DNA of 64,000 nucleotides from Amycolatopsis cihanbeyliensis. Lineage in GTDB: Bacteria; Actinomycetota; Actinomycetes; Mycobacteriales; Pseudonocardiaceae. This document shows, one piece after another, positions 48,695 through 64,000 of this stretch (the stretch's first letter is position 1; every line of letters begins with the position of its first letter). The position numbers were made by a program, and so were the translations under genes. The DNA is taken from assembly GCF_006715045.1 (NCBI RefSeq), contig NZ_VFML01000001.1, positions 1,890,501 through 1,954,500 of the forward strand. Direction: 5' to 3'. Below the pieces are notes generated by a model. The model did no database searches and was not told the DNA's origin. It was given only the letters and a program-made list of their open reading frames with translations.

Positions 48695-49465
48695 TCAGGC
48701 CTCCTGATCCTGGTCCGCCGCCTTCCCGGCGATCGTGTCCACCTCGGCACGCGAGCCACCCTCGGCGAGGTTGCGCTCGATCGCGGCCATCTCGATCCGG
48801 ATCCCCCGGTCAAGGTCGGTCTCGGTGCCCAGGTCCACGGCCTGCTTGGTGAGCGTGATGGCCAGCTCGGGCGCCTCCGCGATCCGGGCCGCGAGCTCGG
48901 CACCGGTCGTGGCCAGCTCCTCCGGTTCGACCAGGCGGGTCACCAGGCCCACCCGGAGGGCCTCCGCGGCGGTCATCACCCGGTTGGTGAAGAGCAGTTC
49001 CTTGGCCCGCCGCGGACCGATCACCCGCTGCAACCGCTGGGTGGCACCGACCGTGCCCCAGTGCGGCTCAGGGAACCGGAAGCTGGCCGAGCTGGTGGCC
49101 ACGGCGAAGTCGCAGCTCATCGCGATCTCGCCACCGGAGCCGACCACGGCGCCGTGCAGCAGCGCGACCACCGGCTTGCTGCACCGCTCGATCGCCTCGT
49201 ACGCGGCGAACGAGGCCTGCCTGCGGCCGCGCACCCACGCGGCGTCCTTCCCCGACCGTTCCTTGAGGTCAGCGCCCGCGCAGAAGGTGGGGCCGTTGCC
49301 CTCGACCAGCACCACCCTGGTGCCGGGCTCGGCGTCCAGCCGCTCGAACGCCTCGCGCAGGGCGAGGCACGTCGGGAGGTTCAGCGCGTTGCGTGCGTGC
49401 GGGCGGTTGAGCACCACCCTGGCAACGGGGCCGGTGGTCTCCACCAGCACTTCGGCGCCGGTCAC
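48695..49465 (-). CDS. Enoyl-CoA hydratase/isomerase family protein (both catalytic Glu present)
   Basis: 256 residues of the crotonase fold. NALNLPTCLALREAF, the oxyanion-hole segment GPTFCAGADLKE and the two hydratase glutamates (GSGGEIAMSCD near 117 and FPEPHWG near 136) are visible, so hydratase activity is expected. GTG start overlaps the CoA-transferase stop (GTGA). Confidence 0.9.
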   Translation of the reverse strand: MTGAEVLVETTGPVARVVLNRPHARNALNLPTCLALREAFERLDAEPGTRVVLVEGNGPTFCAGADLKERSGKDAAWVRGRRQASFAAYEAIERCSKPVVALLHGAVVGSGGEIAMSCDFAVATSSASFRFPEPHWGTVGATQRLQRVIGPRRAKELLFTNRVMTAAEALRVGLVTRLVEPEELATTGAELAARIAEAPELAITLTKQAVDLGTETDLDRGIRIEMAAIERNLAEGGSRAEVDTIAGKAADQDQEA

Positions 49466-50664
49466 GTGATCGTCCCTTCCCGACGCAGCGCGTCGATGTC
49501 CGTGGCGCTCAGTTTCAGCCGGTCGCGCAGCACCGCCTCGGTGTCCGCACCGAGCACGGGCGGCGTGCCGATGTCTGGGACCTGGACGTCGTCGGCGCCG
49601 TTGTCCATGCGTAACGGCGTGCGCAGCGCGGGGAAGGCCCCGGCAACGGGATGGTCGAAGCTGCCGACCAGGTCGCGGGCCACGGTGTTCTCGTCGGTGA
49701 GGATCTCCCGCACGCTGTTCACCTCGCCCGCGGGGATACCGGCGTCGCGTAGCGCCCCGGCCAGTTCGTCCCGCTCCCGCCCGGCGAACGCGGAACGCAG
49801 CGCCGCCATCACCCGGTCCCGCTCGGCCAGCCTGCCCGCGTTGGTGCGCAAGCCGGGTTCCGCGGCCAGCTCGTCCAGGCCGAGCACGGCACACAGCGAC
49901 GGCCAGTGCTGGTCGCTGCAGCTGATCTGCAACCAGCGGCCGTCCGCGCAGGCCAGCGCCTCCGAGGGCACCCTGCCGGGATGCGCGCTCCCGGTGCGCC
50001 CGGGGTCCTCGTCCAGTACGAACAGCCTGGCCGCGGCCAGCGCCAGCAGGCTGACCTGCACATCCATCATGGACAGGTCGACATGGTCGCCCTTTCCGGT
50101 GCTCGCCCTGCCGGCCAGCCCGGTCAGCGCGGCGATGACGATCCAGAGCCCGGAGGTCATATCGGCCACCGGGATGCCCGCCTTGGCCGGTGGTGACTCG
50201 GGATAGCCGGTCATCGACATCAGCCCGGACAGTGCCTGGAACACCGTGTCGTAGCCCCTGCGGTCCGCGTACGGCCCGCGCTGCCCGAAGCCGGTGGTCG
50301 AGACGTAGACCAGCCCGGGGTTGTCCGCGGCCAGCGTGCGGTAGCCGAGCCCGAGCCGGTCCATCCTGCCCGGCAGGAAGTTCTCCACCAGCACATCGGC
50401 CGTGCCCGCCAGCTCCCGGGCCAGCTCGCGGCCGCGCTCGGTTCCCAGGTCGAGGGTGATCGAGCGCTTGCCGCGGTTGAACGCGAAGTAGTACGCGCTG
50501 TCCCCGCTGGGCAGCATCGGCTGCATCAGGCGGGACTCGTCACCCGCGCCGGGGCGTTCGACCTTGATCACCTCGGCGCCGAGCTCGGCGAGGATCTGGG
50601 TGGCCATCGGGCCGGCGAGGACCCTGGAGAAGTCGAGGACGGTGATGCCGGAGAGTGGTCGCAT
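49462..50664 (-). CDS. CaiB/BaiF family III CoA-transferase
   Basis: 400 residues. It begins PLSGITVLDFSRVLAGP, with FNRGKRSITLDL near 63 and the catalytic aspartate in GYDTVFQALSG near 140, all characteristic of family III transferases that move CoA between carboxylates. With a CoA ligase in the same operon there are two routes to CoA activation, suggesting two different acids, or recycling of CoA from product to substrate. It lies 5 nt after the second crotonase gene. Confidence 0.92.
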   Translation of the reverse strand: MRPLSGITVLDFSRVLAGPMATQILAELGAEVIKVERPGAGDESRLMQPMLPSGDSAYYFAFNRGKRSITLDLGTERGRELARELAGTADVLVENFLPGRMDRLGLGYRTLAADNPGLVYVSTTGFGQRGPYADRRGYDTVFQALSGLMSMTGYPESPPAKAGIPVADMTSGLWIVIAALTGLAGRASTGKGDHVDLSMMDVQVSLLALAAARLFVLDEDPGRTGSAHPGRVPSEALACADGRWLQISCSDQHWPSLCAVLGLDELAAEPGLRTNAGRLAERDRVMAALRSAFAGRERDELAGALRDAGIPAGEVNSVREILTDENTVARDLVGSFDHPVAGAFPALRTPLRMDNGADDVQVPDIGTPPVLGADTEAVLRDRLKLSATDIDALRREGTIT

Positions 50665-50669
50665 GGCGA

Positions 50670-51401
50670 TCAGTCCCGGAAGCTTCGCATGATCGTGTTG
50701 ACGTCCCTGCCCGCGCGCATGGCCTCGGCGAAGGGCAGGTCGGCTACCCGGTAGAACAGGTCCTTGGTGGCCGCGATCGCCCGCGGCTCGGCCTCGGCCC
50801 ATTCCCTGGCGATCTCCAGCCCGGCCGCCAGTGCCTCGCCGGGGTCGGTGACCCGGTTGGCGAGGCCCGCCCCGGCCAGCTCCTCGGCGCCGAGCGTCCG
50901 GCCCCTGCTGATCAGCTCGAAGGCGAGCTTGCGGCCGAGGTGGCGTTGCAGGCCGGTCAGCACGATGGCGGGCACGATGGAGTGGGTCAGCTCCGGGTAA
51001 CCGAACCGGGTACCGGTGGCGGCGACCATCATGTCGCAGCCGAGCGCGAGGCCGGCCCCGCCGCCGAGCGCGGCGCCGTGCACGACCGAGACGATCGGCT
51101 TGCGCAGCTGCTGCGGCAGCGCCTGGGTCCGCGCGGTCAGCTCGGCGCGGTGCAGCACGGCGTCCTGGTCGTCCGGGGTCAGCTCGGCGAACTCCCGGAC
51201 ATCCGCCCCGGCGCAGAAGCTGGGTCCCTGCCCGGTGAGCACCACCGCCCGTACGCCCGCGTCGGCGTCGGCGGCCAGCAGCGCCTCCAGCAGGGCCGCG
51301 GTCAGCGGGGTGTTCAGCGCGTTGTGCTTGGCAGGCCGGTTCATCCGCAGCACGCGGACCGCCCCATGCTCCTCGGTCAGCAGCACGTCCTCGTCAGACA
51401 T
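50670..51401 (-). CDS. Enoyl-CoA hydratase/isomerase family protein (first catalytic Glu absent)
   Basis: 243 residues of the crotonase fold. The oxyanion hole GPSFCAGADVREF is near 60 and the second glutamate in GYPEL near 138 is present, but the first hydratase glutamate is replaced (GGGAGLALGCD, Ala in place of Glu). This favours isomerase or another crotonase chemistry over simple hydration, and differs from the crotonase two genes downstream. It overlaps the lyase-like gene by 8 nt. Confidence 0.88.
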   Translation of the reverse strand: MSDEDVLLTEEHGAVRVLRMNRPAKHNALNTPLTAALLEALLAADADAGVRAVVLTGQGPSFCAGADVREFAELTPDDQDAVLHRAELTARTQALPQQLRKPIVSVVHGAALGGGAGLALGCDMMVAATGTRFGYPELTHSIVPAIVLTGLQRHLGRKLAFELISRGRTLGAEELAGAGLANRVTDPGEALAAGLEIAREWAEAEPRAIAATKDLFYRVADLPFAEAMRAGRDVNTIMRSFRD

Positions 51402-52338
51402 TCCGCAGGACCCCCTTCGTCGGCAGGCCGAAACCGGCCCGCGCCACCATGCTGTGCAGTGTCCGGCCCAGCGCCCGCTCGCAGAGCCCGGAGGCGGTCA
51501 GGACCCGGTCCAGGTCGAGCCCGGTGTCCACCCCCATCGACTCGAACAGGTTCACCAGGTCCTCGGTGCAGGCGTTGCCGGTCAGCCCGCCGCCGTAGCT
51601 GATCCCGGCGGGGTGCCCGCCCACCCCGCCGAACGCGCTGTCGAAATGCCTGCAGCCCGCGTCGAGTGCGGCCACACAGTTGGCCAGCGCCGCGCCCCTC
51701 GTGTTGTGGAAGTGAGCCACCACCGGCAGGTCGGGATACTCCGCCGCCAGCCGGGCGAACACCGGCGCGACCGTGGTCGGTGAGCCGAGGCCGGTGGTGT
51801 CGCCGAGGGTGACCAGATCGACGCCGAGCGCGGCGAAGCGTCCGACGTCCTCGACCACCCTGCCGGGGTCGACCGGGCCCTCGAACGGGCAGCCGAAGGC
51901 CACCGAGACGACGCCGACCAGGGTGAACCGGCCACCGGCGAGCCGCACCATCTCGGCGACGTTGTCCCACTGACGGGTGCGGGTCGTGCGCAGGTTGCGC
52001 TCGGTATGCGACTCGGTCGCCGAGACCAGCAGGCTGAGCTCGTCGGCGCCGTGACCGGCATCGAGATCGGCGACGGCACGCCGCACGGCGCGCGCGTTCG
52101 GGCAGGTGGCCTTGAAGGCGACCCCCTCGCGACGGGGCACGGCGGCCAGCACGTCGCTCGCGTCCCGGAAGGCGGGCACCCGTTCCGGATGGCTGTAGCT
52201 GGTGGCCTCGACCCGGGTGAAACCCGCGTCGACGAAGGCGTTCAGTACGGCCAGCTTGGTCGCGGTGGCGACGAAGTCCGGCTCGTGCTGTAGCCCGTCA
52301 CGGGCAAAGCACTCGCAGATCGTGACCCGGTCCCGCAC
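51394..52338 (-). CDS. HMG-CoA lyase-like (DRE-TIM) protein lacking the signature cysteine
   Basis: 314 residues. The DRE-TIM start ECFARDGLQ (Arg13-Asp14), GDTTGLG near 179 and the metal histidines AHFHN (209, 211) fit 3-hydroxy-3-methylglutaryl-CoA lyases. The family signature around GGCP is here GVGGHPAG (239-245): the catalytic-loop cysteine is missing, while the later GLTGN is kept. Another hydroxyacyl-CoA or acyl carboligase substrate is therefore possible. GTG 52338 follows GAGGAG. It is the first gene of the six-gene leftward operon, with a MarR palindrome 44 nt upstream. Confidence 0.85.
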   Translation of the reverse strand: MRDRVTICECFARDGLQHEPDFVATATKLAVLNAFVDAGFTRVEATSYSHPERVPAFRDASDVLAAVPRREGVAFKATCPNARAVRRAVADLDAGHGADELSLLVSATESHTERNLRTTRTRQWDNVAEMVRLAGGRFTLVGVVSVAFGCPFEGPVDPGRVVEDVGRFAALGVDLVTLGDTTGLGSPTTVAPVFARLAAEYPDLPVVAHFHNTRGAALANCVAALDAGCRHFDSAFGGVGGHPAGISYGGGLTGNACTEDLVNLFESMGVDTGLDLDRVLTASGLCERALGRTLHSMVARAGFGLPTKGVLRNV

Positions 52339-52381: not shown

Positions 52382-52402
52382 TCTGTTGATAATGTCAACA
52401 GA
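52382..52402. promoter_or_regulatory. MarR operator, copy 1 (upstream of the acyl-CoA operon)
   Basis: TCTGTTGA-TAATG-TCAACAGA is a perfect 8+8 inverted repeat with a 5-nt spacer, 44 nt before the lyase start and just after the marR stop. It shares arms and 21-bp length with the site at 53008-53030. Confidence 0.82.
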
Positions 52403-52408
52403 CTGCGC

Positions 52409-52939
52409 TCAGCGCTCCTCGGCACGCTCCAGCGCGCGGGCCAAGGTCGCCAGCTTCTCCAGCGCGGTGTCGAGCACCTCGCGTTCCTGGTCGGTGAGGC
52501 AGACCTGGAACGCCTCGTTGCGCTCGTTCGCGGCGACAATCAGTCCATTGTAGACAGAATGTCCGCGGCGGGTCAACGTCAGCTGGGTCGTCCGTCCCGC
52601 GCCGAACTCACGCAGCACCAGCCCGCGCTCGCTCAGCTTGGTGACCACCCTGCTCATCTGCGCCTTGTCCAGCGCGGCGAGCCTGGCCAGCTTGTTCAGC
52701 GTCAGCGGGGCGTCGGCGCCGAGCAACGCGATGGTCCGCCACTCGGCGAGGCTGACATCGAAGTCACGCCGGTAGCGCAGTGCTGCGCTGCGGGACATGG
52801 CGTTGGCGACCCTGCTGAGCCGGTAGGACAGCAGGCCGTGGATGGGCACCGGCGCCGGGGCCGACGCCTCCGTGGACGCCGGAGCCTGCTCGGAGTCCGG
52901 GGTTCCGGGTTCCGGTGAGGTGCGCTTGGGAGCGTTCAT
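52409..52939 (-). CDS. MarR-family transcriptional regulator
   Basis: 176 residues. After a 30-residue Pro/Ala/Ser-rich leader, the winged helix (SLAEWRTIALLGADAPLTLN, then DKAQMSRVVTKLSERGLVLRE) and wing (GRTTQLTLTRRGHSVYNGL) are standard MarR. The family typically responds to aromatic acids or acyl-CoA thioesters. It lies between two catabolic operons, each preceded by the same palindrome, so it probably represses both and itself until an intermediate binds. Its own gene is read toward the leftward operon. Confidence 0.9.
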   Translation of the reverse strand: MNAPKRTSPEPGTPDSEQAPASTEASAPAPVPIHGLLSYRLSRVANAMSRSAALRYRRDFDVSLAEWRTIALLGADAPLTLNKLARLAALDKAQMSRVVTKLSERGLVLREFGAGRTTQLTLTRRGHSVYNGLIVAANERNEAFQVCLTDQEREVLDTALEKLATLARALERAEER

Positions 52940-53007: not shown

Positions 53008-53030
53008 ATCTGTTGACAACAACAACAGAT
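53008..53030. promoter_or_regulatory. MarR operator, copy 2 (divergent promoter)
   Basis: ATCTGTTG-ACAACAA-CAACAGAT is a perfect 8+8 inverted repeat in the gap between marR and the aldehyde dehydrogenase, 69 nt from the marR start and 57 nt from the dehydrogenase start. The TCTGTTGA/CAACAGA arms match copy 1 at identical spacing. TTGACA follows 3 nt later and could be a -35 box. Confidence 0.82.
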
Positions 53031-53086: not shown

Positions 53087-54544
53087 ATGTCCACTGACTC
53101 CCCCGCGACCCTGCTGATCGACGGCAGGTGGCGGTCCGGCGAGACGAACTTCGACGTGGTCGACCCGGCCACGCAGGCAGTCATCGGCACGGCGACCGAT
53201 GGCGGCGAGGCGGACGCGGCCGATGCTCTGGACGCGGCCTGCCGTGCCTTCGAGGCGTGGCGGTCGACGAGCGCGGAGCAGCGAGGCGAGTTCCTGCGCG
53301 TAGCCGCCGCCGAGATCCGCGACCGGGTCGATCCGCTGGCGGAACTCCTGACCAGCGAGAACGGCAAGCCACTCCGGGAGTCCGCTGGCGAGCTGCTCGG
53401 CAGCGCCCGGATGCTGGAGTGGAGCGCGGAGGAGGGGCGGCGCGCCTACGGCAGGGTGACCCCCTCCTCGCCGAGCGGCCCGGGACTGGTGCTGACCGCC
53501 CCGGTCGGGCCCGCGCTCGCGATCACCCCGTGGAACTTCCCCGCCAGCATGCTGATCCGCAAGATCGGCCTCGCGCTGGCCGCCGGGGTCCCGCTGATCG
53601 TCAAGCCCGCCGAGCAGACCCCGCTGATCGCGACCGAGCTGGTCCGCATCATCGAGGAGACCGGCATCCCGGCCGGGGTGCTCCAGTCCGTCACCACCTC
53701 CCGGCCGGCCGAGGTCGCCGGCACCCTCCTGGCCGACAAGCGGCTGCGCAAGGTCAGCTTCACCGGTTCCACCGAGGTCGGCCTCGGGCTGCTGCGCGGC
53801 ACCGGGACCCACCTTCGCCGCACCTCGCTGGAGATGGGCGGGCACTCACCGGCCATCGTGTTCGCCGACGCGGACCTGCCCGCCGCGGCGGCCGGGGTGG
53901 CGGCCGCGAAGTTCTTCAACGCGGGCCAGAGCTGCATCGCGATCAACCGGCTGTACGTGCACCGGGAAGTGCACGACGAGTTCCTCGGCCTGCTCGAGAA
54001 GAAGGTGGCCGCACTGCGGATCGGTCACGGTGCCGCGACCGGCACCACGATCGGCCCGCTGATCGACCGAGACGGCCTGGACAAGGTGGAACACCACGTC
54101 GAGGACGCGGTGGCGCACGGTGCGCGGGTGCTCACCGGCGGCACCCGGTGGCGGCCGGACGATCCGGAGCTCACCGGCGCGTTCTTCGAGCCGACCGTGC
54201 TCACCGGGGCAGGCGACGACATGGTGATCAGCCGCGCGGAGACGTTCGGCCCGGTGCTGCCGGTGTACTCCTTCGACACCGACGAGGAGGCGATCGAGCG
54301 GGCCAACGCCACCGACTACGGCCTGGCCGCCTACCTCTTTGGACCGGATCTGGACCGGATCTGGACCGCGCTGGACCGGCTGAACTTCGGGGTGATCGGG
54401 GTGAACGAGGGCGCTCCGGTGCGTCCCGAACTGCCGTTCGGCGGGATGAAGAACAGCGGTCAGGAACGGGAGGGCGGCAGCGAGGGTATCGAGGCGTTCC
54501 TGGATACCAAGGCCGTCTCGATCAAGCTGCGGGAGTCGCGGTGA
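53087..54544 (+). CDS. Aldehyde dehydrogenase (succinate-semialdehyde-dehydrogenase-like)
   Basis: 485 residues. TPWNFPASMLIRKIGLALAAG near 148 (partial), FTGST, catalytic Glu249 in LEMGGHSP and Cys283 in GQSCIAINR are present. The FNAGQSC form and length resemble the GabD/SSADH branch. It should oxidise the aldehyde produced by the neighbouring aminotransferase or phospho-lyase. ATG 53087 follows GAAGGG. It is the first gene of the rightward operon, behind the MarR site. Confidence 0.9.
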   Translation: MSTDSPATLLIDGRWRSGETNFDVVDPATQAVIGTATDGGEADAADALDAACRAFEAWRSTSAEQRGEFLRVAAAEIRDRVDPLAELLTSENGKPLRESAGELLGSARMLEWSAEEGRRAYGRVTPSSPSGPGLVLTAPVGPALAITPWNFPASMLIRKIGLALAAGVPLIVKPAEQTPLIATELVRIIEETGIPAGVLQSVTTSRPAEVAGTLLADKRLRKVSFTGSTEVGLGLLRGTGTHLRRTSLEMGGHSPAIVFADADLPAAAAGVAAAKFFNAGQSCIAINRLYVHREVHDEFLGLLEKKVAALRIGHGAATGTTIGPLIDRDGLDKVEHHVEDAVAHGARVLTGGTRWRPDDPELTGAFFEPTVLTGAGDDMVISRAETFGPVLPVYSFDTDEEAIERANATDYGLAAYLFGPDLDRIWTALDRLNFGVIGVNEGAPVRPELPFGGMKNSGQEREGGSEGIEAFLDTKAVSIKLRESR

Positions 54545-54555
54545 GGACGGGAAAC

Positions 54556-55863
54556 ATGACCGTACAGGAAGCGAGCGAGCGGGCTCGGCTGCTCGCCGAA
54601 CTGGATGTTCGCAACATCATCCACCCGCACACCACGATCGGCGCGCCGGCCGAGCCGCTGATCATCGAGCGCGCCGAGGGCGCTGTGCTGTGGGACGACA
54701 CCGGTAAATCCTATGTAGACGGTACATGCGGGCTGTGGCAGTGCCCGGTGGGACACGGGCGGGCTGAGCTGGCCGCGGCGGCCGCCGAGCAGATCGGCAG
54801 GCTGGAGTTCTACTCGTCCTTCGGGGACTACGCCAACGAACCGTCCATTTTGCTCGCCGACCGGCTGCTGCGGTTGGCGCCGCCGGGGTTGCGGAAGGTG
54901 TTCTTCACCAACGGCGGCTCCGAGGGCAACGAGACCGCGATCAAGCTCGCCCGGCTCGCCTGGTACAACGCGGGCAAGCCCGACCGCAACGTCATCCTCG
55001 CCCGCACCGGCGGCTACCACGGCATGGGCGGCGGCTCGCTCGCCGCGACCGGCATCGACGCACTCCACGAAGGGTTCGGGCCACTGCTTTCCGGCGTCGA
55101 GTTCGTCGGCAAGCCACACGGGCTCGAACACGGCGATGACGCGACCTGCATCCTGGTCGCCGAGCTGGAACAGCGGATCGCCGAGATCGGCCCCGAGCGG
55201 ATCGCCGCCTTCGTCGCCGAACCGGTGCTCGGCGTCGGCGGCATGGTGCCGCCCCCGCCCGGCTACTGGCCCCGGGTGCAGGAGGTCCTGCGGCGGCACG
55301 GCATCCTGCTGATCGTCGACGAGATCGTGACCGCGTTCGGCCGGATCGGGCACTGGTTCGCTTCCGAGCACTACGGGATCGAGCCGGACATGATCGTCAC
55401 CGCCAAGGGGATCTCCAGCGGGTACATCCCGATGGGGGCGGTGCTGGTCGGCGAGCGGGTCCTCCGGCTGGCCGACGGCGCGGCCTTCCGGCACGGCTTC
55501 ACCTACAACGGCCATCCGGTCGGCGCGGCGGTCGCCCTTGCCAATATCGACATCCTGGAGCGTGAGGGGCTGCTCGACCGGGCGAAGGAGGTCGGCGCCG
55601 CGATCCGGGCCGGTCTCGAGCCGCTCGCGGAGCTCGAGCACGTCCGCGAGGTACGTGGCGTCGGGTTGATGCTCGGCGTCGAGCTCGACCGCGACGCCGC
55701 GAGCGTGCAGGCGGGCGCACGGCGGGACGGGCTCATCGTGCGCGCCGCCGGGACCAACATCATCATCTCGCCACCGCTGGTGATCAGCGACGAGCAGGCC
55801 CGCACCCTCGTGCGGGTGGTGCGCGAGCACGTGACGGCGGCCGGTAGCCGGCCCGCCCCGTGA
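54556..55863 (+). CDS. Class III aminotransferase (omega-amino acid/amine type)
   Basis: 435 residues of a fold-type I PLP enzyme. NGGSEGNETAIKLARLA near 117, the GGYHGMGGGSLAATG segment near 153, the PLP aspartate in LLIVDEIVTAFGR near 250 and the Schiff-base lysine in VTAKGISSGYIPMG near 282. The family transfers terminal amino groups of beta-alanine, GABA, putrescine or similar amines. ATG 54556 is favoured; a GTG at 54541 would overlap the dehydrogenase stop. Pairing with an aldehyde dehydrogenase implies amine to aldehyde to acid. Confidence 0.92.
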   Translation: MTVQEASERARLLAELDVRNIIHPHTTIGAPAEPLIIERAEGAVLWDDTGKSYVDGTCGLWQCPVGHGRAELAAAAAEQIGRLEFYSSFGDYANEPSILLADRLLRLAPPGLRKVFFTNGGSEGNETAIKLARLAWYNAGKPDRNVILARTGGYHGMGGGSLAATGIDALHEGFGPLLSGVEFVGKPHGLEHGDDATCILVAELEQRIAEIGPERIAAFVAEPVLGVGGMVPPPPGYWPRVQEVLRRHGILLIVDEIVTAFGRIGHWFASEHYGIEPDMIVTAKGISSGYIPMGAVLVGERVLRLADGAAFRHGFTYNGHPVGAAVALANIDILEREGLLDRAKEVGAAIRAGLEPLAELEHVREVRGVGLMLGVELDRDAASVQAGARRDGLIVRAAGTNIIISPPLVISDEQARTLVRVVREHVTAAGSRPAP

Positions 55864-55880
55864 CCCCTTCGGAGGCCGCC

Positions 55881-56909
55881 ATGCGAGGCAGCAGAACAGT
55901 GACCGCCGTGGCGATGGCGTCGGTACTCGCCGGCACCGCCGCGTGCGGATCGGACAACCGGGCGCTGACCTTCGTCTCCACCGGAAGTTCCTTCCAGGAC
56001 AACCAGAAGACGGCGTGGCAGGAGCCGTTCACCGCCGAGTCCGGCATCGAGGTCCGCAATGACGGCCCGGTGGACGAGGCCAAGCTGCGGGCGATGGTCG
56101 ACGCGGGCAAGGTCAGCTGGGACGTGGTGGACACCAGTGCGGCGGCGGCCGAGCAGTACTGCGGCACCTACCTGGAGCCACTGGACTTCTCCATCGTCGA
56201 CCGCGACGCCTACCCGCCGGAGACGGTGAGCGAGTGCGGGGTGCCAGCCTACTTCTACAGCATCATCTTCATGTACGACACCACCAAGTACGGCGACCGG
56301 CCACCGCGGACCATTGCGGACTTCTTCGATCCCGAGCGCTATCCCGGCAGGCGGATGGTTCCCCCGGAGATCGCCGTCGGGCTGCTCGAGGACGCGCTGC
56401 TGGCCGACGGGGCGCACCCGGATCAGCTCTACCCGCTGGATGTCGACCGGGCGCTGCGCAAGGTCGACGTGATCAAGGACGTGACCACGTTCGCGGAGAC
56501 CTACGGCCAGATGCAGCAGGCGATGGTGGACGGCCAGGTGGACATGGCGCTGGTGTCCACGGCACGGGCCCACCAGGCGCTCAGCGCGGGTGCGCCGTTC
56601 GAGCCGGTGTGGGACAAGACGATCGTCAACTGGAATGACCTCGTCGTGCCGAAGGGCTCGCCGAACAGGGAAGAGGCCATGAAGTTCATCGCGTTCATCG
56701 CGGGGGACGAGCCGTCGGCGAGGTTCTCCGAACTGGCCTCGGTACAGCCGGTGAACGAGCAGGTCAAGCCGAACTTCGACGAGGTACAGCGCCGGATCGA
56801 CGCGTTCTCCCCTGAGCACCGGCACAGCGTGGTGCTCGGCAACGCCCGGTGGTGGGCACGCAACTTCGACGCGGTGACCGAGAAGTTCACCGCCTGGCTG
56901 GCCGGTTAG
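55881..56909 (+). CDS. Polyamine-type ABC transporter substrate-binding lipoprotein, copy 1
   Basis: 342 residues. Lipoprotein signal with the lipobox cysteine in TAACGS near residue 22, then the PotD/PotF-like fold: KLRAMVDAGKVSWDVVDTSA near 72 (partial), IADFFDPERYPGRR near 140, and TYGQMQQAMVDGQVDMAL near 205. It delivers the substrate to the two permeases that follow. ATG 55881 follows GGAGG. A related second binding protein lies at the end of the same transporter set. Confidence 0.9.
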   Translation: MRGSRTVTAVAMASVLAGTAACGSDNRALTFVSTGSSFQDNQKTAWQEPFTAESGIEVRNDGPVDEAKLRAMVDAGKVSWDVVDTSAAAAEQYCGTYLEPLDFSIVDRDAYPPETVSECGVPAYFYSIIFMYDTTKYGDRPPRTIADFFDPERYPGRRMVPPEIAVGLLEDALLADGAHPDQLYPLDVDRALRKVDVIKDVTTFAETYGQMQQAMVDGQVDMALVSTARAHQALSAGAPFEPVWDKTIVNWNDLVVPKGSPNREEAMKFIAFIAGDEPSARFSELASVQPVNEQVKPNFDEVQRRIDAFSPEHRHSVVLGNARWWARNFDAVTEKFTAWLAG

Positions 56910-56923
56910 GTGGTGCGGGTGCG

Positions 56924-57814
56924 ATGAGCTCATCCACGGTGGCCACCGGCACGGCCGGCACGGCTTCCACCGGGCGCGGGAGGCGGCCCCGCATGGTCAA
57001 CTGGACCCTGCTGCCCGCCGCCGCGGTACTCCTGGTGTTCTTCTTCTACCCGCTGGCCACGATCGTGTGGCGCAGCATCACCGAGCCCGCGTTCGGCCTG
57101 GACAACTACACCGTGCTGTTCACCGACGGGGTCTCGGTCACCGTGCTGCTGCGCACGCTGCGGACCGCCCTGATCGTCGCGCTGGTGGCGCTGGTGATCG
57201 CCTACCCGTACGCGTACGCCATGACGAGGGTGTCGAAACGCGGCCGGGCACTGCTGACCGTGCTGGTGCTGCTGCCGTTCTGGACCTCGGTGATGGCGAG
57301 GAACTTCGCCTGGTACCTGCTCGAGCAGCGGGGCGGCCTGATCGAGCGGTTCCTCGCCGCGCTCGGCATCGACGGCGTGGTGCTGCTCGGCAGCGTGACC
57401 GGGGTGACCGTGGCCATGGTGCAGGTGATGCTGCCGTTCATGGTGCTTCCGCTGTACAGCGGGATGAGTGCCATCGACCGGCGGCTGCTCGACGCGGCGA
57501 CCAGCCTCGGCGCGTCGTGGCGCACCGCCTTCGCCAAGGTGTACTTCCCGCTGTCGCTTCCCGGTGTGGTCTCCGGATTCTCCCTGGTCTTCATCGTGAC
57601 ACTGGGGTTCTTCATCACGCCCGCGCTGCTCGGCACACCGCAGCAGTCGCTGGTGGCGCAGGTGATCGAGACCAGGGTCAGTGACCTGCTGGACTTCCCG
57701 GGAGCGGGCGCGTTCGGTGCGGTGCTGCTGGTGGTCACGCTGCTGGTGCTGTTCGCCGTGAGCCGGATCGCGCGCCCGACCGCGGCACTGAACCAGGCGG
57801 TGGACCGTGGCTAG
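56924..57814 (+). CDS. ABC transporter permease, PotB-like
   Basis: 296 residues, six transmembrane helices after a 25-residue Thr/Gly/Arg-rich N-terminus. The EAA loop (LLDAATSLGASWRTAFAKVYFP, around residue 190) contacts the ATPase. FWTSVMARNFAW is typical of spermidine/putrescine permease PotB. It lies 14 nt after the binding-protein gene and overlaps the PotC-like gene by 8 nt. Confidence 0.92.
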   Translation: MSSSTVATGTAGTASTGRGRRPRMVNWTLLPAAAVLLVFFFYPLATIVWRSITEPAFGLDNYTVLFTDGVSVTVLLRTLRTALIVALVALVIAYPYAYAMTRVSKRGRALLTVLVLLPFWTSVMARNFAWYLLEQRGGLIERFLAALGIDGVVLLGSVTGVTVAMVQVMLPFMVLPLYSGMSAIDRRLLDAATSLGASWRTAFAKVYFPLSLPGVVSGFSLVFIVTLGFFITPALLGTPQQSLVAQVIETRVSDLLDFPGAGAFGAVLLVVTLLVLFAVSRIARPTAALNQAVDRG

Positions 57815-58619
57815 CGCGGACCGGCCCCGCGCCGGGCGGCAGGGAATCGGCTGGGGTCTGCGTATCTGGGTGGTGCTGGTGGCCGCGCTGCTGCTGGCCC
57901 CGACGCTGGTGGTCATCCCGATGAGCTTCAGCGCGAGCGAGACCTTCGAGTTCCCGCCGCGGGAATGGTCGCTGCGCTGGTACGAGGAGTTCTTCTCCTC
58001 GCACGCCTGGATGTCCTCTGTGCTCAACTCGCTGCAGATCGGCCTGCTGACCGCGGTGCTGGCCACCGCGGTCGGGGTCGCGGCGGCGATCGGCCTGGAC
58101 CGCACCGGGTTCCGGGGCAGGGAGATGCTGCGTTCGGCCGCGATGGCCCCGATGATCGTGCCCGGGATCGTGGTCGCGGTGGCGATCTACGGGACGTTCC
58201 TGCGCTGGCAGCTGAACGGGACGTTGCTCGGGTTCGTGCTGGCGCACACCGTGCTCGCGCTGCCGTTCGTGGTGACCTCGGTCGCCACCAGCCTGGCCGG
58301 CTACGACCGGGTGGTCGAGACCGCAGCCGCCAGCCTCGGCGCGTCCTGGTGGACGACGTTCCGGAAGGTGACCCTGCCGCTGCTGGCGCCAGGGGTGGCT
58401 TCCGGTTTCGTGTTCGCCTTCGTCGTCTCCCTTGACGAGGTGATGATCGCCCTGTTCCTGCAGACTCCGGACATCCGCACGCTGCCGGTGCAGATGTACA
58501 ACTCGATCACTCTGGAAATCGACCCGACGATCGCCGCGGCCTCCAGCCTGATCGTGGCGATCACGACCATCGCCCTGCTGCTGCCGCAGCTGGTCCGCAG
58601 ACGCCGGAGCGAATCATGA
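57807..58619 (+). CDS. ABC transporter permease, PotC-like
   Basis: 270 residues with six helices. The family's [23 protein letters not shown] segment follows helix 1 (recognisable from SFSAS and [11 protein letters not shown]), and the EAA loop is around [21 protein letters not shown]. It pairs with the PotB-like permease. GTG start; it overlaps the ATPase gene by 4 nt (ATGA). Confidence 0.92.
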
Positions 58620-59710
58620 GCGCACAGCCGTCCACACCCACCAGTCACGGGATCCGGATCGCGAACGTGACCAAGGAGTTCCCCGCGCTGCCCCGGCCCG
58701 CCGTCGATGACGTGTCGCTGGACATCGCGCCGGGCGAGTTCATGACCTTTCTCGGCCCGTCCGGGTCCGGCAAGACGACCATGCTGTCGATGATCGCCGG
58801 ATTCGTGCCGTTGAGCGAGGGCTCGATCTCCATCGACGGTGAGGACGTCAGCAGGCTCAAGGCACACAAGCGCGATCTCGGCGTGGTGTTCCAGCAGTAC
58901 GCGCTGTTCCCGCACATGACGGCGGCACGCAACATCGCGTTCCCGTTGCAGCAGCGGAGCATGCCGAAAGCGGAGATCGCGACCAGGGTGCGCGAGGCGT
59001 TGCGGCTGGTCGACCTCGAGGAGGTCGCCGACCGGCTCCCGAAACAGCTCTCCGGCGGGCAGCAGCAGCGGGTCGCGCTGGCCCGCGCGGTGGTCTACGA
59101 GCCACGGGCGCTGCTGCTGGACGAGCCACTCGGCGCACTGGACAAGCGGCTGCGCGACCAGCTGCGCCGGGAGATCGCCCGGATGCACCGGGAACTGGGC
59201 ATGACGTTCATCTTCGTCACCCACGACCAGGAGGAGGCACTCACCCTTTCCAACCGGATCGCGGTGTTCCACGAGGGGAAGGTCGAGCAGGTCGGCACTC
59301 CCGACGAGCTCTACGAACGCCCGCGGACGCTGTTCGTGGCGCGCTTTCTCGGCGAGTCCAACGTGTTCCACGGTGCCGCCGGTGCGGGCGAGCTCGCGGT
59401 GGTCCGGCCGGAACGGCTGGAACTGCACGCCGACCCCGCTGAGGCACCGGCAGGTTGCCCGCGGCGGGACGCGACCGTCACCGACGTCGTGTACGTGGGC
59501 AACCATCACCGGATCGGGCTGCGGTTCGCCGACGGCACCAGCGGCTCGGCGATGCGCCTCGCCGGCGCCGCTCTCCCGGCCGCGCCCGGCGAGCCCGTGG
59601 TGGTGAGCTGGAGCTCCCGGCACCAGGCCGTCATCCCGGACCCCGAGACCGCGGGCTCCCGGCTCGACCCGGCAGGTATGGACCAGACCGCCGCGACGGT
59701 CATCGGCTGA
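58616..59710 (+). CDS. ABC transporter ATP-binding protein, PotA-like
   Basis: 364 residues. Walker [10 protein letters not shown] near 44, Q-loop [17 protein letters not shown], signature LSGGQQQR, Walker [12 protein letters not shown] and [10 protein letters not shown] are complete. A C-terminal TOBE domain (about 285-350, [17 protein letters not shown]) is typical of PotA/FbpC transporters and may sense substrate. It energises import by the flanking permeases. Confidence 0.93.
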
Positions 59711-59737
59711 CCGCGGCGACGAACAAGGAGAATGCCA

Positions 59738-60778
59738 GTGCGTCGAACAAGAACAAGAATGGCGGGAGCGGCCGGGTTCGCGGTCGCACTGCTCGCGGGC
59801 TGCACCGCGGGCACCGACGACCAGTCGCTGACCTTCGTGTCCTACGGTGAGGGCGCCTACCAGGACGGTCAGCAGCAGGCATGGCTGGAACCGTACGAGG
59901 ATAAGTCCGATGTGGACATCACACTGGACGGGCCTTCGGACAACGCGAAGCTGCGTGCCATGGTCGAGGCGGGCAGGGTCACCTGGGACATCATGGACAC
60001 CGACGCGTTCATGGCCAGGGAACACTGCGGCACCCTGCTGGAGAAGATCGACGTCGGCGACCTACGGGATTCGTTTCCGGAGGGAACCCTTTCCGACTGC
60101 GGGGTTCCGGCGGCGCTGTTCGGCCTGATGCCGATGTACAACGAGAACACCTACGGCGAGAACCCGCCGTCCACGCTCGCGGACTTCTTCGACACCAGCA
60201 AGTTCCCCGGTAAGCGGGTGATCTACGGCAAGGATCCGGCCATCGGCACGCTGGAGGCGGCCCTGCTCGCCGGCGGTGTGCCCGAGGACCAGCTCTACCC
60301 GCTGGACGTGCAGCGCGCCCTCGGCGTGTACGACCGGATCCGGTCCGACCTCATCTTCGCGCAGACCTACGGCCAGCAGCAGCAGGTGATGGTGGACGAC
60401 CAGGCGGATATGGCGCTGGTGGTCAGCGCGCGGGCATACTCCGCGTTGCAGGCCGGTGGCACGCAGTGGAAGGCCATGCGGACCAAGGTTCCGGTCACCT
60501 GGGACGTGCTGGTGATCCCGAAGGGCAGCCCGCACAAGGACACCGCCGTGGACCTCATCCGGTTCGCCTCGCGGCCGGAGCAGGCCGCGAGGTTCGCCGA
60601 GATCTCGGGTGCGGGCCCGGCCAACGTCGCCGCCGAGCCGCGGGTAAACGAGCTGCAGCAACGGGTCGACGTGCTCGGCGCCGAGCACGTCGACCGCCAG
60701 GTGTTCATCGATGCCGACTGGTGGACCCCGAACTACACCTCGGTCGTGCAGGCGTGGTCGGCATGGCAGACCGGATGA
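59738..60778 (+). CDS. Polyamine-type ABC transporter substrate-binding lipoprotein, copy 2
   Basis: 346 residues, lipobox LLAGC near residue 20. It is paralogous to copy 1: both share LTFVS, KLRAMV.AG, CGT.LE, ADFFD, QLYPLDV.RAL and TYGQ.QQ.MVD. GTG 59738 gives 7 nt after AAGGAG, whereas the ATG two codons earlier is only 1 nt from it, so GTG is preferred. Two binding proteins on one permease set suggest two related ligands. Confidence 0.88.
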   Translation: MRRTRTRMAGAAGFAVALLAGCTAGTDDQSLTFVSYGEGAYQDGQQQAWLEPYEDKSDVDITLDGPSDNAKLRAMVEAGRVTWDIMDTDAFMAREHCGTLLEKIDVGDLRDSFPEGTLSDCGVPAALFGLMPMYNENTYGENPPSTLADFFDTSKFPGKRVIYGKDPAIGTLEAALLAGGVPEDQLYPLDVQRALGVYDRIRSDLIFAQTYGQQQQVMVDDQADMALVVSARAYSALQAGGTQWKAMRTKVPVTWDVLVIPKGSPHKDTAVDLIRFASRPEQAARFAEISGAGPANVAAEPRVNELQQRVDVLGAEHVDRQVFIDADWWTPNYTSVVQAWSAWQTG

Positions 60779-60815
60779 GCCGGGCGAGCGGGCCGGACGG
60801 GCGAGGGAGGGCGTG

Positions 60816-61895
60816 ATGCGCGCTGCCGTGCTGCGGCATGCCGGGCTGGACGGGATCGGCATCCGCGACGATGTCGAGACCGTCGCGGTGTCCGATGTGC
60901 TCGTCCGGGTGCGGGTACGGGCCGCCGGCGTCTGCCACTCCGACCTGTCCGCGGCCACCGGGCGGCTCGGCCTCGCTCCCCCGGTGGTGCTCGGCCACGA
61001 GGCTGCCGGTGAGGTGGTCGAGGTCGGTGACCAGGTGCGGGACTTCGAACCCGGCGACCGGGTGATGGTCTCCTGGGTGCCGCAGTGCGGCTCCTGCCCG
61101 TGCTGCCTGCGCGGGCAACCGGAACTGTGTGGCTACGCCCTCGAACCGGGCTACCGCAGGCCGCGGTTCCTGGTCGGGAGCAAGCCGGTGGCCGCGCAGG
61201 CCGGTTGTGGCGCGTTCGCCGAGGAGGTCGTGGTCACCCAGCACAACCTCGTGCGGCTGCCGGACGGTGTGCCGTACGAGATCGGTGCGCTGGTCAGCTG
61301 CGGGGTCAGCACCGGGGTGGGTGCGGTGCTGAACACCGCGGAACTGGCGGAGGGCGCCACGGCGGTGGTGATCGGCTGTGGCGGTGTCGGCATGTCGATC
61401 GTGCAGGCCGCCCGTGCCGCGGGCGCGGCCACCGTGGTCGCGGTGGATCCGGTACCGGCCAAGCGCGAGCTGGCCCGCACGCTGGGTGCCTCGATCGCCG
61501 CCGCCCCTGCCGAGCTCGCCGAGCACCTGCCCACCGCGGGCGGCGAGGCCGGGTTCGACGTGGCCTTCGAGGCGGTCGGTCTCCCGGAGACCATCCGGTC
61601 CGCCTACGACGCGACCAGGCGCGGCGGAACCACCGTGATCGTCGGCGTCGGAGCCGCGGAGGCCACGGTGCCGTTCTCCGCACGCGAGCTGTACGCGAGC
61701 GGCAGGCGCCTGGTCGGCTCGGTATTCGGTTCGTGCGACATCCACCGGGACTTTCCCCGCAACATCGAGTTGTGGCGCAAGGGTGAACTGGAGTTGGAAG
61801 CATTGATCAGCGATCGGATCGGCCTCACCGACCTGCCGGACGCGCTGCGGGCGCTGCGCTCCGGTTCCGCGCTTCGTTCGGTGGTGATCTTCTGA
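60816..61895 (+). CDS. Zinc-dependent alcohol dehydrogenase (MDR superfamily)
   Basis: 359 residues. The catalytic zinc ligands (GVCHSD, GHEAAGE), four structural cysteines in CGSCPCCLRGQPELC and the cofactor loop GCGGVG near 184 are intact. It is closely similar in plan to the dehydrogenase at 2708-3796 but has a different insertion after the structural zinc. GAGGGAGGG precedes the ATG. Its stop overlaps the ATG of the fusion gene (TGATG), so the two are coupled. It may oxidise an alcohol or reduce the aldehyde formed by its neighbours. Confidence 0.9.
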   Translation: MRAAVLRHAGLDGIGIRDDVETVAVSDVLVRVRVRAAGVCHSDLSAATGRLGLAPPVVLGHEAAGEVVEVGDQVRDFEPGDRVMVSWVPQCGSCPCCLRGQPELCGYALEPGYRRPRFLVGSKPVAAQAGCGAFAEEVVVTQHNLVRLPDGVPYEIGALVSCGVSTGVGAVLNTAELAEGATAVVIGCGGVGMSIVQAARAAGAATVVAVDPVPAKRELARTLGASIAAAPAELAEHLPTAGGEAGFDVAFEAVGLPETIRSAYDATRRGGTTVIVGVGAAEATVPFSARELYASGRRLVGSVFGSCDIHRDFPRNIELWRKGELELEALISDRIGLTDLPDALRALRSGSALRSVVIF

Positions 61896-64000
61896 TGACC
61901 GCCGACCAGCGGTACCGGCGGATCACCGCGGAGCCGCCCCGGATGGGCGAGAACCGGCAGCGGGAGATCCTGCGCACGGAGTTCGGCGTGACGCCGGCGG
62001 CCGTCCGGCCGCTGGCCGGAGAGACCGACCGCAACCTCTGGGTGGCGGACGGCTCCGGTGCCGAGTATGTACTCAAGGTCTGCGCTGCCGCCGAGGAGCG
62101 GGCGGTGCGGTTCCAGGCCGAGTTGCTGCGGCACCTGGCCGAGCGGGACCCGGAACTGGCGGTACCGCGGGTGGTGCCCGGCACCGCGGGCGCCGATGTG
62201 GTGGCCTGCCAGGACGGGAGCCTGGCCCGGCTGCTGACCTGGCTGCCGGGCACCCCGCTGGCCGAGGTCTCCAGGTACTCGCACGAGCTGCTCACCGACG
62301 TCGGCACGGCCGCGGGCCGGCTGGCGGCGGCGACCGGCGCCTGGCAGCCCGCGCACGCACCCCAGCCGCACTACTGGGAGTTCCCGCACGCCGTTACCGT
62401 GCTGGCCGACTCGCTGCCCCGCCTCGCCGATGCGGACCTGCGGGCCGCGGTCACCGGCATCCACGCCGAGTTCGTGCCGTTGCTGGACCGGCTACCGGAC
62501 CTGCCGCAGGCTGTGGTGCATCACGACCTCAACGCCTTCAACGTGCTGGTCGAGCGGCGCGGTCAGCGGCGCAGGGTCTCCGGGCTGATCGACTTCGGGG
62601 ACGCGCTGCGGACCGCGCGGGTGGCGGACCTCGCGGTGCTGCTGTCCAGCGCGATGCGCGGCAGTGCCCGCCCGCTGCGGGTCGCCTCCCTGCTCACCGC
62701 CGCCTACCACGCGGCATGCCCGCTCACCGAGGCCGAACTCGACCTGGTGTTCCCGCTGGCCGCCATCCGGGCGGCGGCGGTGGCGGCCACCACGGCGCGG
62801 CTGGACTCCTCCGGGGAGCACGGCGACCCCCGGCATCGCTCCCCCGCGGCCGCCGCGCTGGTCCGCACCCTCGCGCAAACCCCGGCCGCCGTCGGCACCG
62901 GCGTGATCCGGCGGGCGTGCGGGCTCCCGGCAGGCCCGGACACGGCCGCGGTCACCGGATGGCTCGCGGACAACGCGGGCACCTTCCGCGGGGTGGTGTG
63001 CGCGCGGACCCGGCCGGTGGACCTTTCCGCCGGCAGCCCGGTCTTCGACGAGGCCGACCCGCGCGATCCCGCCACGCTGCGGGCCGCGGCCCAGGCCGCG
63101 ATCGTGGCGGCCCGGCCCGCGGTGCCGGTCACCCGCTACGGGGAGCCACGTTTCCTGGCACCGGCACGACGTGGCACGGCGACCGGGGAGCCCGCGAACG
63201 TACCGACCGGCGTCGAGCTGTTCCCCGCCGGGGACGAACCGGTCTTCGCCCCGGTCGCCGGTACGGTCGAGGCGACGGACCCGGACCTCGTGCTCCGGCA
63301 CGAACCGGTGCGCGGCGTCCGGTTCTGGACCGGCTACTCCGGGCTGGCAACCGGGCTCGAGACCGGCGCCGAGGTTGCCGCGGGCCGGCGGATCGGGACC
63401 GTCCGCGCGGACGCGGGCGTCCCGTCCCCGCCGCGCCTGGGGATCCGGCTGTCGACCGTGCCGGTCACCTCGTGGTCCGACATCCCCGCGCTGGTGCCGC
63501 CTTCCGAGGCACCGGTGTGGCAGGAACTGCTGCCCGACCCGACGGCGCTCACCGGTCAGCCGGAACCGGCCGCGTGGTCTCCCGTGCTCGACCGCGTACT
63601 GGGCACCAGGGCCGAGCGGCTGCCCGCCACCCACCCGACCTACTACGACGAGCCGATCACCATGGTGCGGGCACGGGACTGCTGGTTCTACGACGAGCAC
63701 GGCCGGTCCTACCTGGACTCGCTGAACAACGTGACACTGCTCGGCCACGGGCACCCGCGGCTGGTCGACGCGGCGACCCGGCAGCTGCGCAGGCTCAACA
63801 CCAACAGCCGGTTCGTCTACCAGTCGCTGACCGAGTACGCGGACGCGCTCACCGCGACCCTGCCGGAAGGCCTGGACGTGGTGTACTTCGTCAACTCCGG
63901 CAGCGAGGCGAACGACCTCGCGCTGCGGATGGCGCGCTACGTGTCGGGACGCCAGGACGTGGTGATCATCGACGACGCCTACCACGGCTACACGGCCGCG
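61895..64000 (+). CDS. Kinase/M23-like/class III PLP enzyme fusion, N-terminal 702 residues (runs off the window)
   Basis: Three modules are visible. Residues about 20-330 are an APH/choline-kinase-like phosphotransferase, with catalytic HHDLNAFNVLV at 209-219 and Mg-binding LIDFGD at 231-236. Residues about 435-505 (PVFAPVAGTVEATD, WTGYSGLATGLETGAEVAAG) resemble the M23/biotinyl beta-fold, without the zinc-peptidase His-x-His. From about 570 a class III PLP domain starts (YLDSLNNVTLLGHGHP, VNSGSEANDLALRMARY); its lysine would lie beyond the window. Kinase plus such a PLP domain recalls human hydroxylysine kinase and the phosphoethanolamine/phosphohydroxylysine phospho-lyases, here in one chain. 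It would phosphorylate an amino alcohol and then eliminate phosphate and ammonia to give an aldehyde. No stop occurs in the window. Confidence 0.88.
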   Translation, partial: MTADQRYRRITAEPPRMGENRQREILRTEFGVTPAAVRPLAGETDRNLWVADGSGAEYVLKVCAAAEERAVRFQAELLRHLAERDPELAVPRVVPGTAGADVVACQDGSLARLLTWLPGTPLAEVSRYSHELLTDVGTAAGRLAAATGAWQPAHAPQPHYWEFPHAVTVLADSLPRLADADLRAAVTGIHAEFVPLLDRLPDLPQAVVHHDLNAFNVLVERRGQRRRVSGLIDFGDALRTARVADLAVLLSSAMRGSARPLRVASLLTAAYHAACPLTEAELDLVFPLAAIRAAAVAATTARLDSSGEHGDPRHRSPAAAALVRTLAQTPAAVGTGVIRRACGLPAGPDTAAVTGWLADNAGTFRGVVCARTRPVDLSAGSPVFDEADPRDPATLRAAAQAAIVAARPAVPVTRYGEPRFLAPARRGTATGEPANVPTGVELFPAGDEPVFAPVAGTVEATDPDLVLRHEPVRGVRFWTGYSGLATGLETGAEVAAGRRIGTVRADAGVPSPPRLGIRLSTVPVTSWSDIPALVPPSEAPVWQELLPDPTALTGQPEPAAWSPVLDRVLGTRAERLPATHPTYYDEPITMVRARDCWFYDEHGRSYLDSLNNVTLLGHGHPRLVDAATRQLRRLNTNSRFVYQSLTEYADALTATLPEGLDVVYFVNSGSEANDLALRMARYVSGRQDVVIIDDAYHGYTAA

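Follow-up and report, generated by a model that had tools for sequence, protein, structure and literature searches.

Which compound is broken down by a protein that joins a kinase of the APH fold, a domain resembling Peptidase_M23 and a class III pyridoxal phosphate (PLP) enzyme in one chain? This question is raised by the gene at the end of a 64,000-nt stretch of the Amycolatopsis cihanbeyliensis genome (contig NZ_VFML01000001.1, positions 1,890,501–1,954,500). The whole stretch is termed the window, and its coordinates are used throughout; compared loci, genomes and proteins are given by our L, G and P handles. The fusion protein appears to be a two-step amino-alcohol deaminase encoded in a two-sided, probably MarR-controlled island, where an aminotransferase and the fusion would feed one aldehyde; the probability of this reading is put at about 0.58. 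This work adds three points: the island is wider than first noted and apparently co-regulated, the M23 domain is decayed, and the island can apparently do without the fusion.

The fusion gene lies on the forward strand at 61895–64000 and runs on beyond the window; completed from the genome sequence (61895–64870, extended coordinates), it encodes 991 amino acids. The kinase domain (residues 1–330) is at 61895–62884, the middle domain (residues 331–566) at 62885–63592, and the phospho-lyase domain (residues 567–991) starts at 63593, with the part after 64000 outside the window. On the completed protein Pfam places APH at residues 38–262 (94.5 bits, cut-off 23.2) and Aminotran_3 at residues 587–987. 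An earlier note on this DNA advised looking downstream for the PLP lysine and took a missing lysine as evidence against a lyase. The lysine is present, as K833 in VTMGKSMGNG (at about 64391), and conforms to the motif MGKxMGNG. An alignment of full-length sequences (the query and 70 picked from 120 listed proteins) shows no exception at this lysine, at the His, Asp and Asn of the kinase motif HxDxxxxN or at the Asp that follows, each being invariant in 71 of 71.

The lyase domain falls in a clade with human ETNPPL and with A1RDF1, two solved phospho-lyases, apart from 11 transaminases (100/98 in a 58-row tree). This tree is without PHYKPL, for which the matches to solved structures gave no entry, and rows L022, L043, L059, L062, L065 and L066 (short, partial or duplicate) were removed before alignment. 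Lyase-type residues, at positions picked post hoc from the same alignment, are found at 14 of 14 positions in the fusion. The solved chain of the human ethanolamine-phosphate phospho-lyase ETNPPL (6tor) is a lyase without a kinase or M23 domain, and several of its positions are fixed differently in the cluster clade, i.e. the close relatives of the window fusion. A1RDF1 of Arthrobacter aurescens (5g4i) has 11 of the 14 lyase-type positions, but lies across the main fork from the fusion and also has no kinase or M23 domain. The full-length structure model used was that of the Saccharothrix ortholog P0002, not of the window copy. The 50 structure matches listed mainly cover residues 393–982, are uninformative on the kinase, and name no M23 or kinase chain. 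Motifs, clade and fold support the earlier proposal of a kinase and a phospho-lyase in one chain, and amino-alcohol catabolism is supported as the general role.

Two NCBIfam families of multi-domain aminotransferase-like proteins, NF004799 (PRK06148) and NF004800 (PRK06149), match the fusion nearly end to end (residues 14–989 and 8–991) and have the same length and domain order. Thus the fusion itself, with an architecture already catalogued, is not new. It scores below both curated cut-offs, however (827.2 against 1128 and 784.4 against 973), and differs in its decayed middle domain and its actinobacterial island setting. A protein search yielded 2898 relatives at E ≤ 0.001 from 8000 scored candidates, of which the best 120 were listed; the architecture is not always shared whole. 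No description of the fusion or the island was found among the literature matches listed, which does not exclude an earlier account of bacterial fusions. No assayed member of the family was found in the literature searched, which included portions of PMC8154272, PMC11113362, PMC12999171 and PMC6829864.

All genes named in the earlier note are present on the forward strand. They are an aldehyde dehydrogenase (ALDH) similar to succinate semialdehyde dehydrogenase (SSADH) (53087–54544, open reading frame from 53042), a class III omega-aminotransferase of the putrescine or polyamine:pyruvate type (54556–55863), an ABC importer with a first solute-binding protein (SBP1, 55860–56909), permeases 1 (56924–57814) and 2 (57807–58619) and a PotA-like ATPase (58616–59710), and a zinc alcohol dehydrogenase of the MDR type (ADH, 60813–61895), which is coupled to the fusion by a TGATG overlap as had been noted. 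Unmentioned in that inventory was a second solute-binding protein (SBP2, 59732–60778), which like SBP1 is of the GABA-binding-protein type. A second TGATG overlap joins the fusion to an amidohydrolase of the Amidohydro_3 family (about 64870–66537, extended coordinates, past the window end), found on looking for further genes downstream as the earlier note had suggested.

Positions 53087–64000, proposed earlier as the unit, proved too narrow: the conserved unit extends from about 46117 on the opposite strand to about 66537 at the end of the amidohydrolase. A CoA-thioester pathway, encoded opposite to the fusion, is part of it. All on the reverse strand are a MarR-family regulator (52409–52939, 176 aa counted from ATG), an HMG-CoA-lyase-like (HMGL-like) protein (51394–52338), enoyl-CoA hydratase/isomerase family protein 1 (50670–51401), a CaiB/BaiF (class III) CoA-transferase (49462–50670; it scores highest with the profile of succinate-glutarate CoA-transferase, at 309.8 bits against a cut-off of 750), enoyl-CoA hydratase/isomerase family protein 2 (48695–49420), an AMP-binding acyl-CoA ligase (47064–48689) and a nitronate monooxygenase or FabK-like flavoprotein (46117–47136).

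Twenty-two close loci (L007–L027, L033) were compared. ALDH, aminotransferase, at least one SBP, two permeases, ATPase, fusion and amidohydrolase are contiguous in 19 of these; the exceptions are L018 (SBP and fusion only), L022 (fusion and amidohydrolase on a short contig) and L033 (rearranged). SBP2 is present in 4 of the 19 relatives with a contiguous block. ADH, which the earlier note had included in the system, is found in just 2 of the 19; it was therefore rejected as an integral partner and is regarded as accessory. It should be noted that gene calls in some of the stretches examined come from a crude caller and that some are wrong-strand shadows.

On the other side of the regulator, the HMGL-like ortholog is present with 74%–82% identity in 11 of 12 genome handles searched (two of the 11, G114 and G124, give identical positions and were treated as a single genome); the genome of L024 has just a 41% match. 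The ortholog stands beside MarR in 19 of 21 relatives, all except L018 and L024: directly in 16 loci (L007–L017, L019, L020, L025–L027) and via overlapping stretches in three (L021/L073, L023/L076, L033/L077). L022 is too short for this comparison. The order HMGL-like protein, hydratase, CaiB, hydratase, ligase, monooxygenase is kept in 9 of 9 fetched stretches; in the genome of L023 this CoA block and the amine block are codirectional. Because the CoA block is conserved beside MarR in relatives, the gene set initially noted is about half of a conserved two-sided unit. The island is apparently common to related bacteria and would serve the breakdown of a nitrogen compound.

The HMGL-like protein barely reaches profile NF004283 (246.6 against 246). 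It has the RDGLQ and HFHNTRG motifs of HMG-CoA lyase (6nds, 2cw6). The loop cysteine, which we take to be human Cys266 of the active-site loop, is however replaced (GGCP to GGHP) and the loop has four additional residues. All 13 loops compared, that of the window and 12 of 12 others, show this GGHP form with its four extra residues, L082 and L083 not being among them.

In 37 sequences totalling 761 kb, some of which overlap as parts of the same genome, the palindrome TGTTG-N6/7-CAACA was counted 71 times, against 0 for four scrambled controls. In the window one copy, with a 7-nt spacer and containing TTGACA, lies ahead of the ALDH operon (53011–53027) and a second between MarR and the HMGL-like gene (52384–52400); both are predicted MarR operators. 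Twenty-one genomes were counted: the window and 20 relatives showing MarR, ALDH or both (L007–L017, L019–L021, L023–L027, L033). The palindrome precedes ALDH in 20 of 21, the exception being L033/L077, where both sites are between MarR and HMGL. Across MarR from ALDH, 21 of 21 have a site, which precedes HMGL or, in L024, another gene; for L021 the MarR-side sites lie in the overlapping stretch L073. L018 has two palindromes upstream of its SBP and fusion. A longer form with two or fewer mismatches gives 3 matches in the window against 0.08 expected, two of which are both strands of one palindrome. With one mismatch or less it is found in the 7.4 Mb genome in this island and one other place (a reversed control gives 0 forward and 1 reverse). 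As judged from these sequences, one MarR protein probably controls both strands of the island, and the window MarR would bind the predicted palindromes. Such operators offer a reporter for an inducer search.

The other place (G000:C1:1660583–1660730; L078 6584–6731) has two sites between an alpha/beta hydrolase gene and a gene of the short-chain dehydrogenase/reductase (SDR) family. The hydrolase has, by eye, a signal-like N-terminus. These genes may belong to the same regulon, or a related regulator may act on them. Two more MarR-type palindromes are seen in L021 (2561 and 2709), before the aminotransferase gene; the ALDH match lies about 2.4 kb upstream of them.

From the families, motifs, clade and fold of the fusion and its neighbors we infer the following reactions. 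The GABA/opine-type ABC importer would bring in an amino-acid-like amine or an amide of it, and the amidohydrolase would open the amide. The omega-aminotransferase would convert a plain amine R-CH2-CH2-NH2 to the aldehyde R-CH2-CHO. For the beta-hydroxylated analogue R-CH(OH)-CH2-NH2, the APH-fold domain would phosphorylate the hydroxyl of the vicinal amino alcohol, and the class III PLP domain would eliminate phosphate and ammonia to give the same R-CH2-CHO. The single aldehyde dehydrogenase may then oxidise this product; in the divergent block a CoA ester would be made, hydrated, and cleaved by the HMG-CoA-lyase-like enzyme. A funnel to one aldehyde is suggested because the fusion looks like an optional extra entry (see below) and because of the known reactions of the two enzyme families; the step order and the identity of R are proposed with the same reserve. 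The catalogued fusion family thus becomes testable, in that the substrate should suit a GABA-type binding protein, an amidohydrolase and a CoA lyase.

A simpler use of the fusion would be for ethanolamine or 1-amino-2-propanol, giving acetaldehyde or propionaldehyde, with the rest of the island handling other amines. ETNPPL is the closest characterised lyase, and a kinase/phospho-lyase route for amino alcohols is known in bacteria from older enzymology. The importer, however, looks amino-acid or opine type, acetaldehyde needs no six-gene CoA block with an HMGL-like lyase, and a long stem branch separates the cluster lyases from ETNPPL in the tree. These points make the use of such small amino alcohols unlikely.

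The kinase domain directs attention to another amino alcohol. Outside its own fusion families its nearest named family, at 61.7 bits against a cut-off of 271, is homoserine kinase, which acts on the alcohol of an amino acid, and the close relative P0015 bears the database label "hydroxylysine kinase /5-phosphonooxy-L-lysine phospho-lyase". The fusion could accordingly be read as a hydroxylysine kinase joined to a 5-phosphohydroxylysine phospho-lyase. This is quite unlikely: the label is a database name and not a test, and the product of the hydroxylysine route, 2-aminoadipate semialdehyde, leaves the amidohydrolase and the HMGL-like block unexplained.

The importer was described in the earlier note as PotABCD-like, for polyamines. 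The best solved chains for SBP1 are however the GABA-binding proteins Pf622 (E = 2.9e-61, 210.8 bits) and Atu4243 (E = 2.1e-54, 188.3 bits), and the same two lead for SBP2 (E = 1.8e-49 and 3.7e-46), with agropine and mannopine proteins ranking next for both. Among chains named spermidine/putrescine-binding, the best for SBP1 is 8jv1 (87.2 bits), and 1pot gives 29.3 bits. The PotD profile gives 26.9 and 22.2 bits on the two SBPs against a cut-off of 582, so they are not of PotD type. Identity to Atu4243 is 36.1% for SBP1 and 34.0% for SBP2. Arg203 and Asp226, which we take to be GABA contacts of Atu4243, the Arg being presumably the carboxylate contact, do stand at chain positions 203 and 226 of its aligned sequence. 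The Arg203 equivalent is kept in 27 of 27 SBPs, and Asp226 corresponds to Asp in 21 and Asn in 6. Both are kept in the window SBP2, whereas SBP1 keeps Arg203 and has Asn for Asp226. The likeness to Pf622 and Atu4243 rests on sequence, and the Arg alone is not proof of GABA since the agropine protein also has Arg there (by eye). The structure entry of Atu4243 (4eq7) carries the title "Polyamine" despite being a GABA protein. PA0222 is reported in PMC6829864 to be specific for GABA, in an account of proteins predicted to bind polyamines. A polyamine importer was thus dropped as the best guess, as the SBPs fit GABA- and opine-binding proteins better; by sequence the importer looks GABA/opine-type rather than polyamine-type.

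With such binding proteins the substrate pair could be GABA, via the aminotransferase, and beta-hydroxy-GABA (4-amino-3-hydroxybutyrate), via the fusion, both leading to succinate semialdehyde. The best profile of the ALDH is TIGR01780 SSADH (487.8 bits, under its cut-off of 646.35), and the equivalent of Arg213 is present in 19 of 19 readable rows. Arg213, Arg334 and Ser498 (human numbering) are presumably the SSADH carboxylate contacts. However, no readable row retains the other two: the Arg334 equivalent is replaced in 19 of 19 and that of Ser498 in 20 of 20, the window included (the L021 row is gapped at three of four positions). This weakens succinate semialdehyde as the aldehyde, and for succinate the CoA block would be superfluous; the beta-hydroxy-GABA route is thus very unlikely.

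It is scarcely credible that the two domains share no pathway, with the PLP part acting as a transaminase or racemase and the kinase part as a modifying or resistance-type enzyme: the fold comparison does find transaminases and racemases in the fold family of the lyase domain and resistance-kinase APH profiles match the kinase weakly (26.9 bits and less), but the clade and residue comparison of the lyase domain, the joint invariance of both active sites (71/71) and the adjacency of separate kinase and lyase genes in 8 loci speak against it.

The two-step deaminase appears to be an optional part of its island. Within the family an HMGL ortholog (at least 72%) is present in 8 of 120 genomes, and the cluster-type fusion (at least 68%) in 3 of 120, all three with HMGL; across the order an HMGL-like gene is found in 3 of 298 genomes. 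Two genomes of one genus (G040 and G074) have the island without the fusion, the ATPase being followed directly by the amidohydrolase, plus a major facilitator superfamily (MFS) transporter. Thus the fusion looks like an optional extra entry enzyme. In G082, G085 and G107 the CoA block is found with an MFS transporter, and in the latter two also with ALDH. Since the CoA block occurs with an MFS transporter in fusion-less genomes, an imported acid may feed it, and the amine block looks like one route to that acid. Matches elsewhere in these genomes are a 38% fusion in G040 and a 39%–40% lyase in G085 and G107. Three of the five MFS proteins were scanned and gave galactonate and 4-hydroxyphenylacetate permease profiles, below cut-offs. 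Where the fusion is absent, an MFS transporter beside MarR replaces or joins the ABC importer (L082, L083, L084, L085, L086).

The kinase/lyase arrangement was also compared in 24 loci outside the cluster clade (L028–L032, L034–L052). Kinase, middle domain and lyase form one frame in L028, L029, L050, L051 and L052 (L049 is the same S. meliloti gene as L050 in another strain). Kinase and lyase form one frame without a middle domain in L030, L031, L032 and L046, and are separate adjacent genes, also without it, in 8 loci (L036–L041, L047, L048). In L034, L035 and L042–L045 the lyase has no kinase match in its flank. The earlier note explained the fusion by channelling of an unstable phospho-intermediate. 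Channelling is not needed, because kinase and lyase are separate genes in those 8 loci; phospho-amino-alcohols such as phosphoethanolamine are, moreover, stable.

In one of the gene-pair loci (L038 6367–9134, Rhizobiales) a diol dehydratase, with large and medium subunits in one frame and a small subunit, and an SDR lie beside the pair. In S. meliloti the genes near the kinase-lyase gene include those of an SDR and an amino-acid ABC transporter. The deacylase (see below), diol dehydratase, SDR and amino-acid transporter contexts are all compatible with small amino alcohols or amides of these, and none of them identifies the substrate.

The middle domain was earlier called M23-like and non-catalytic. 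The M23 likeness stands, with the qualification that the window copy scores just 18.4 bits with Peptidase_M23, below the cut-off of 28.7. The cut-off is passed in 4 of 4 relatives scanned (54.1, 46.0, 44.7 and 32.6 bits). Neither zinc motif (HxxxD, HxH) is present in the window copy, which has no zinc ligands. Both are seen in L028, L029, L051, L052, P0099, P0105, P0110 and P0114; the patterns are loose, with some chance matches (e.g. P0010, P0040), and were counted only when both stood in an M23 context. Many Actinomadura copies retain the first motif only, and in L049/L050 the first is clear and the second appears only as AHIHA. As its sequence indicates, the domain is a decayed M23 domain whose zinc motifs are intact in some distant fusions. 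A catalytic role here is unlikely because the zinc motifs are lost and 12 loci (4 direct fusions and 8 split-gene loci) lack the domain; in the window fusion it is most likely now a spacer. The puzzle of the middle domain is thereby given an explanation: it would be what is left of a metallo-domain whose zinc motifs survive in relatives.

A more speculative scheme, to which we give little credence, is that the family began as a three-activity enzyme for N-acylated amino alcohols, in which M23 would deacylate, the kinase phosphorylate and the lyase give the aldehyde. Zinc would have been lost in the actinobacterial island as a separate amidohydrolase took over, and the proteobacterial split genes would use a nearby deacylase. 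It is suggested because an amidohydrolase or deacylase tracks M23 zinc loss or absence of the domain. Of the 22 cluster-clade loci, 20 have the amidohydrolase directly behind the fusion (the exceptions being L018 and L033), and a deacylase is in the flanks of 6 of the 8 split-gene loci (not L038, L040): histone-deacetylase-type (acetylpolyamine-type) genes in L036, L037, L039, L047 and L048, and an M20 gene in L039 and L041. None was found, with three families searched, in the four long-flank loci with an M23 domain and at least the first zinc motif (L029, L050, L051, L052). Several points weigh against the scheme: there is no deacylase in the 4 direct fusions without a middle domain (L030, L031, L032, L046), an annotated membrane dipeptidase lies about 6 kb off in L052, and the numbers are small, with only those three hydrolase families searched.

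Two minor observations may be added. The Amidohydro_3 protein of the Acrocarpospora island (L033 5101–6954) has a weak match to a twin-arginine (TAT) signal (22.0 bits, cut-off 22.7); therefore amide opening may be extracellular in Acrocarpospora. About 10 kb past the window end (L006 757–4881) is, as judged by eye, a long ribonucleotide-reductase-like frame with an intein-like insertion.

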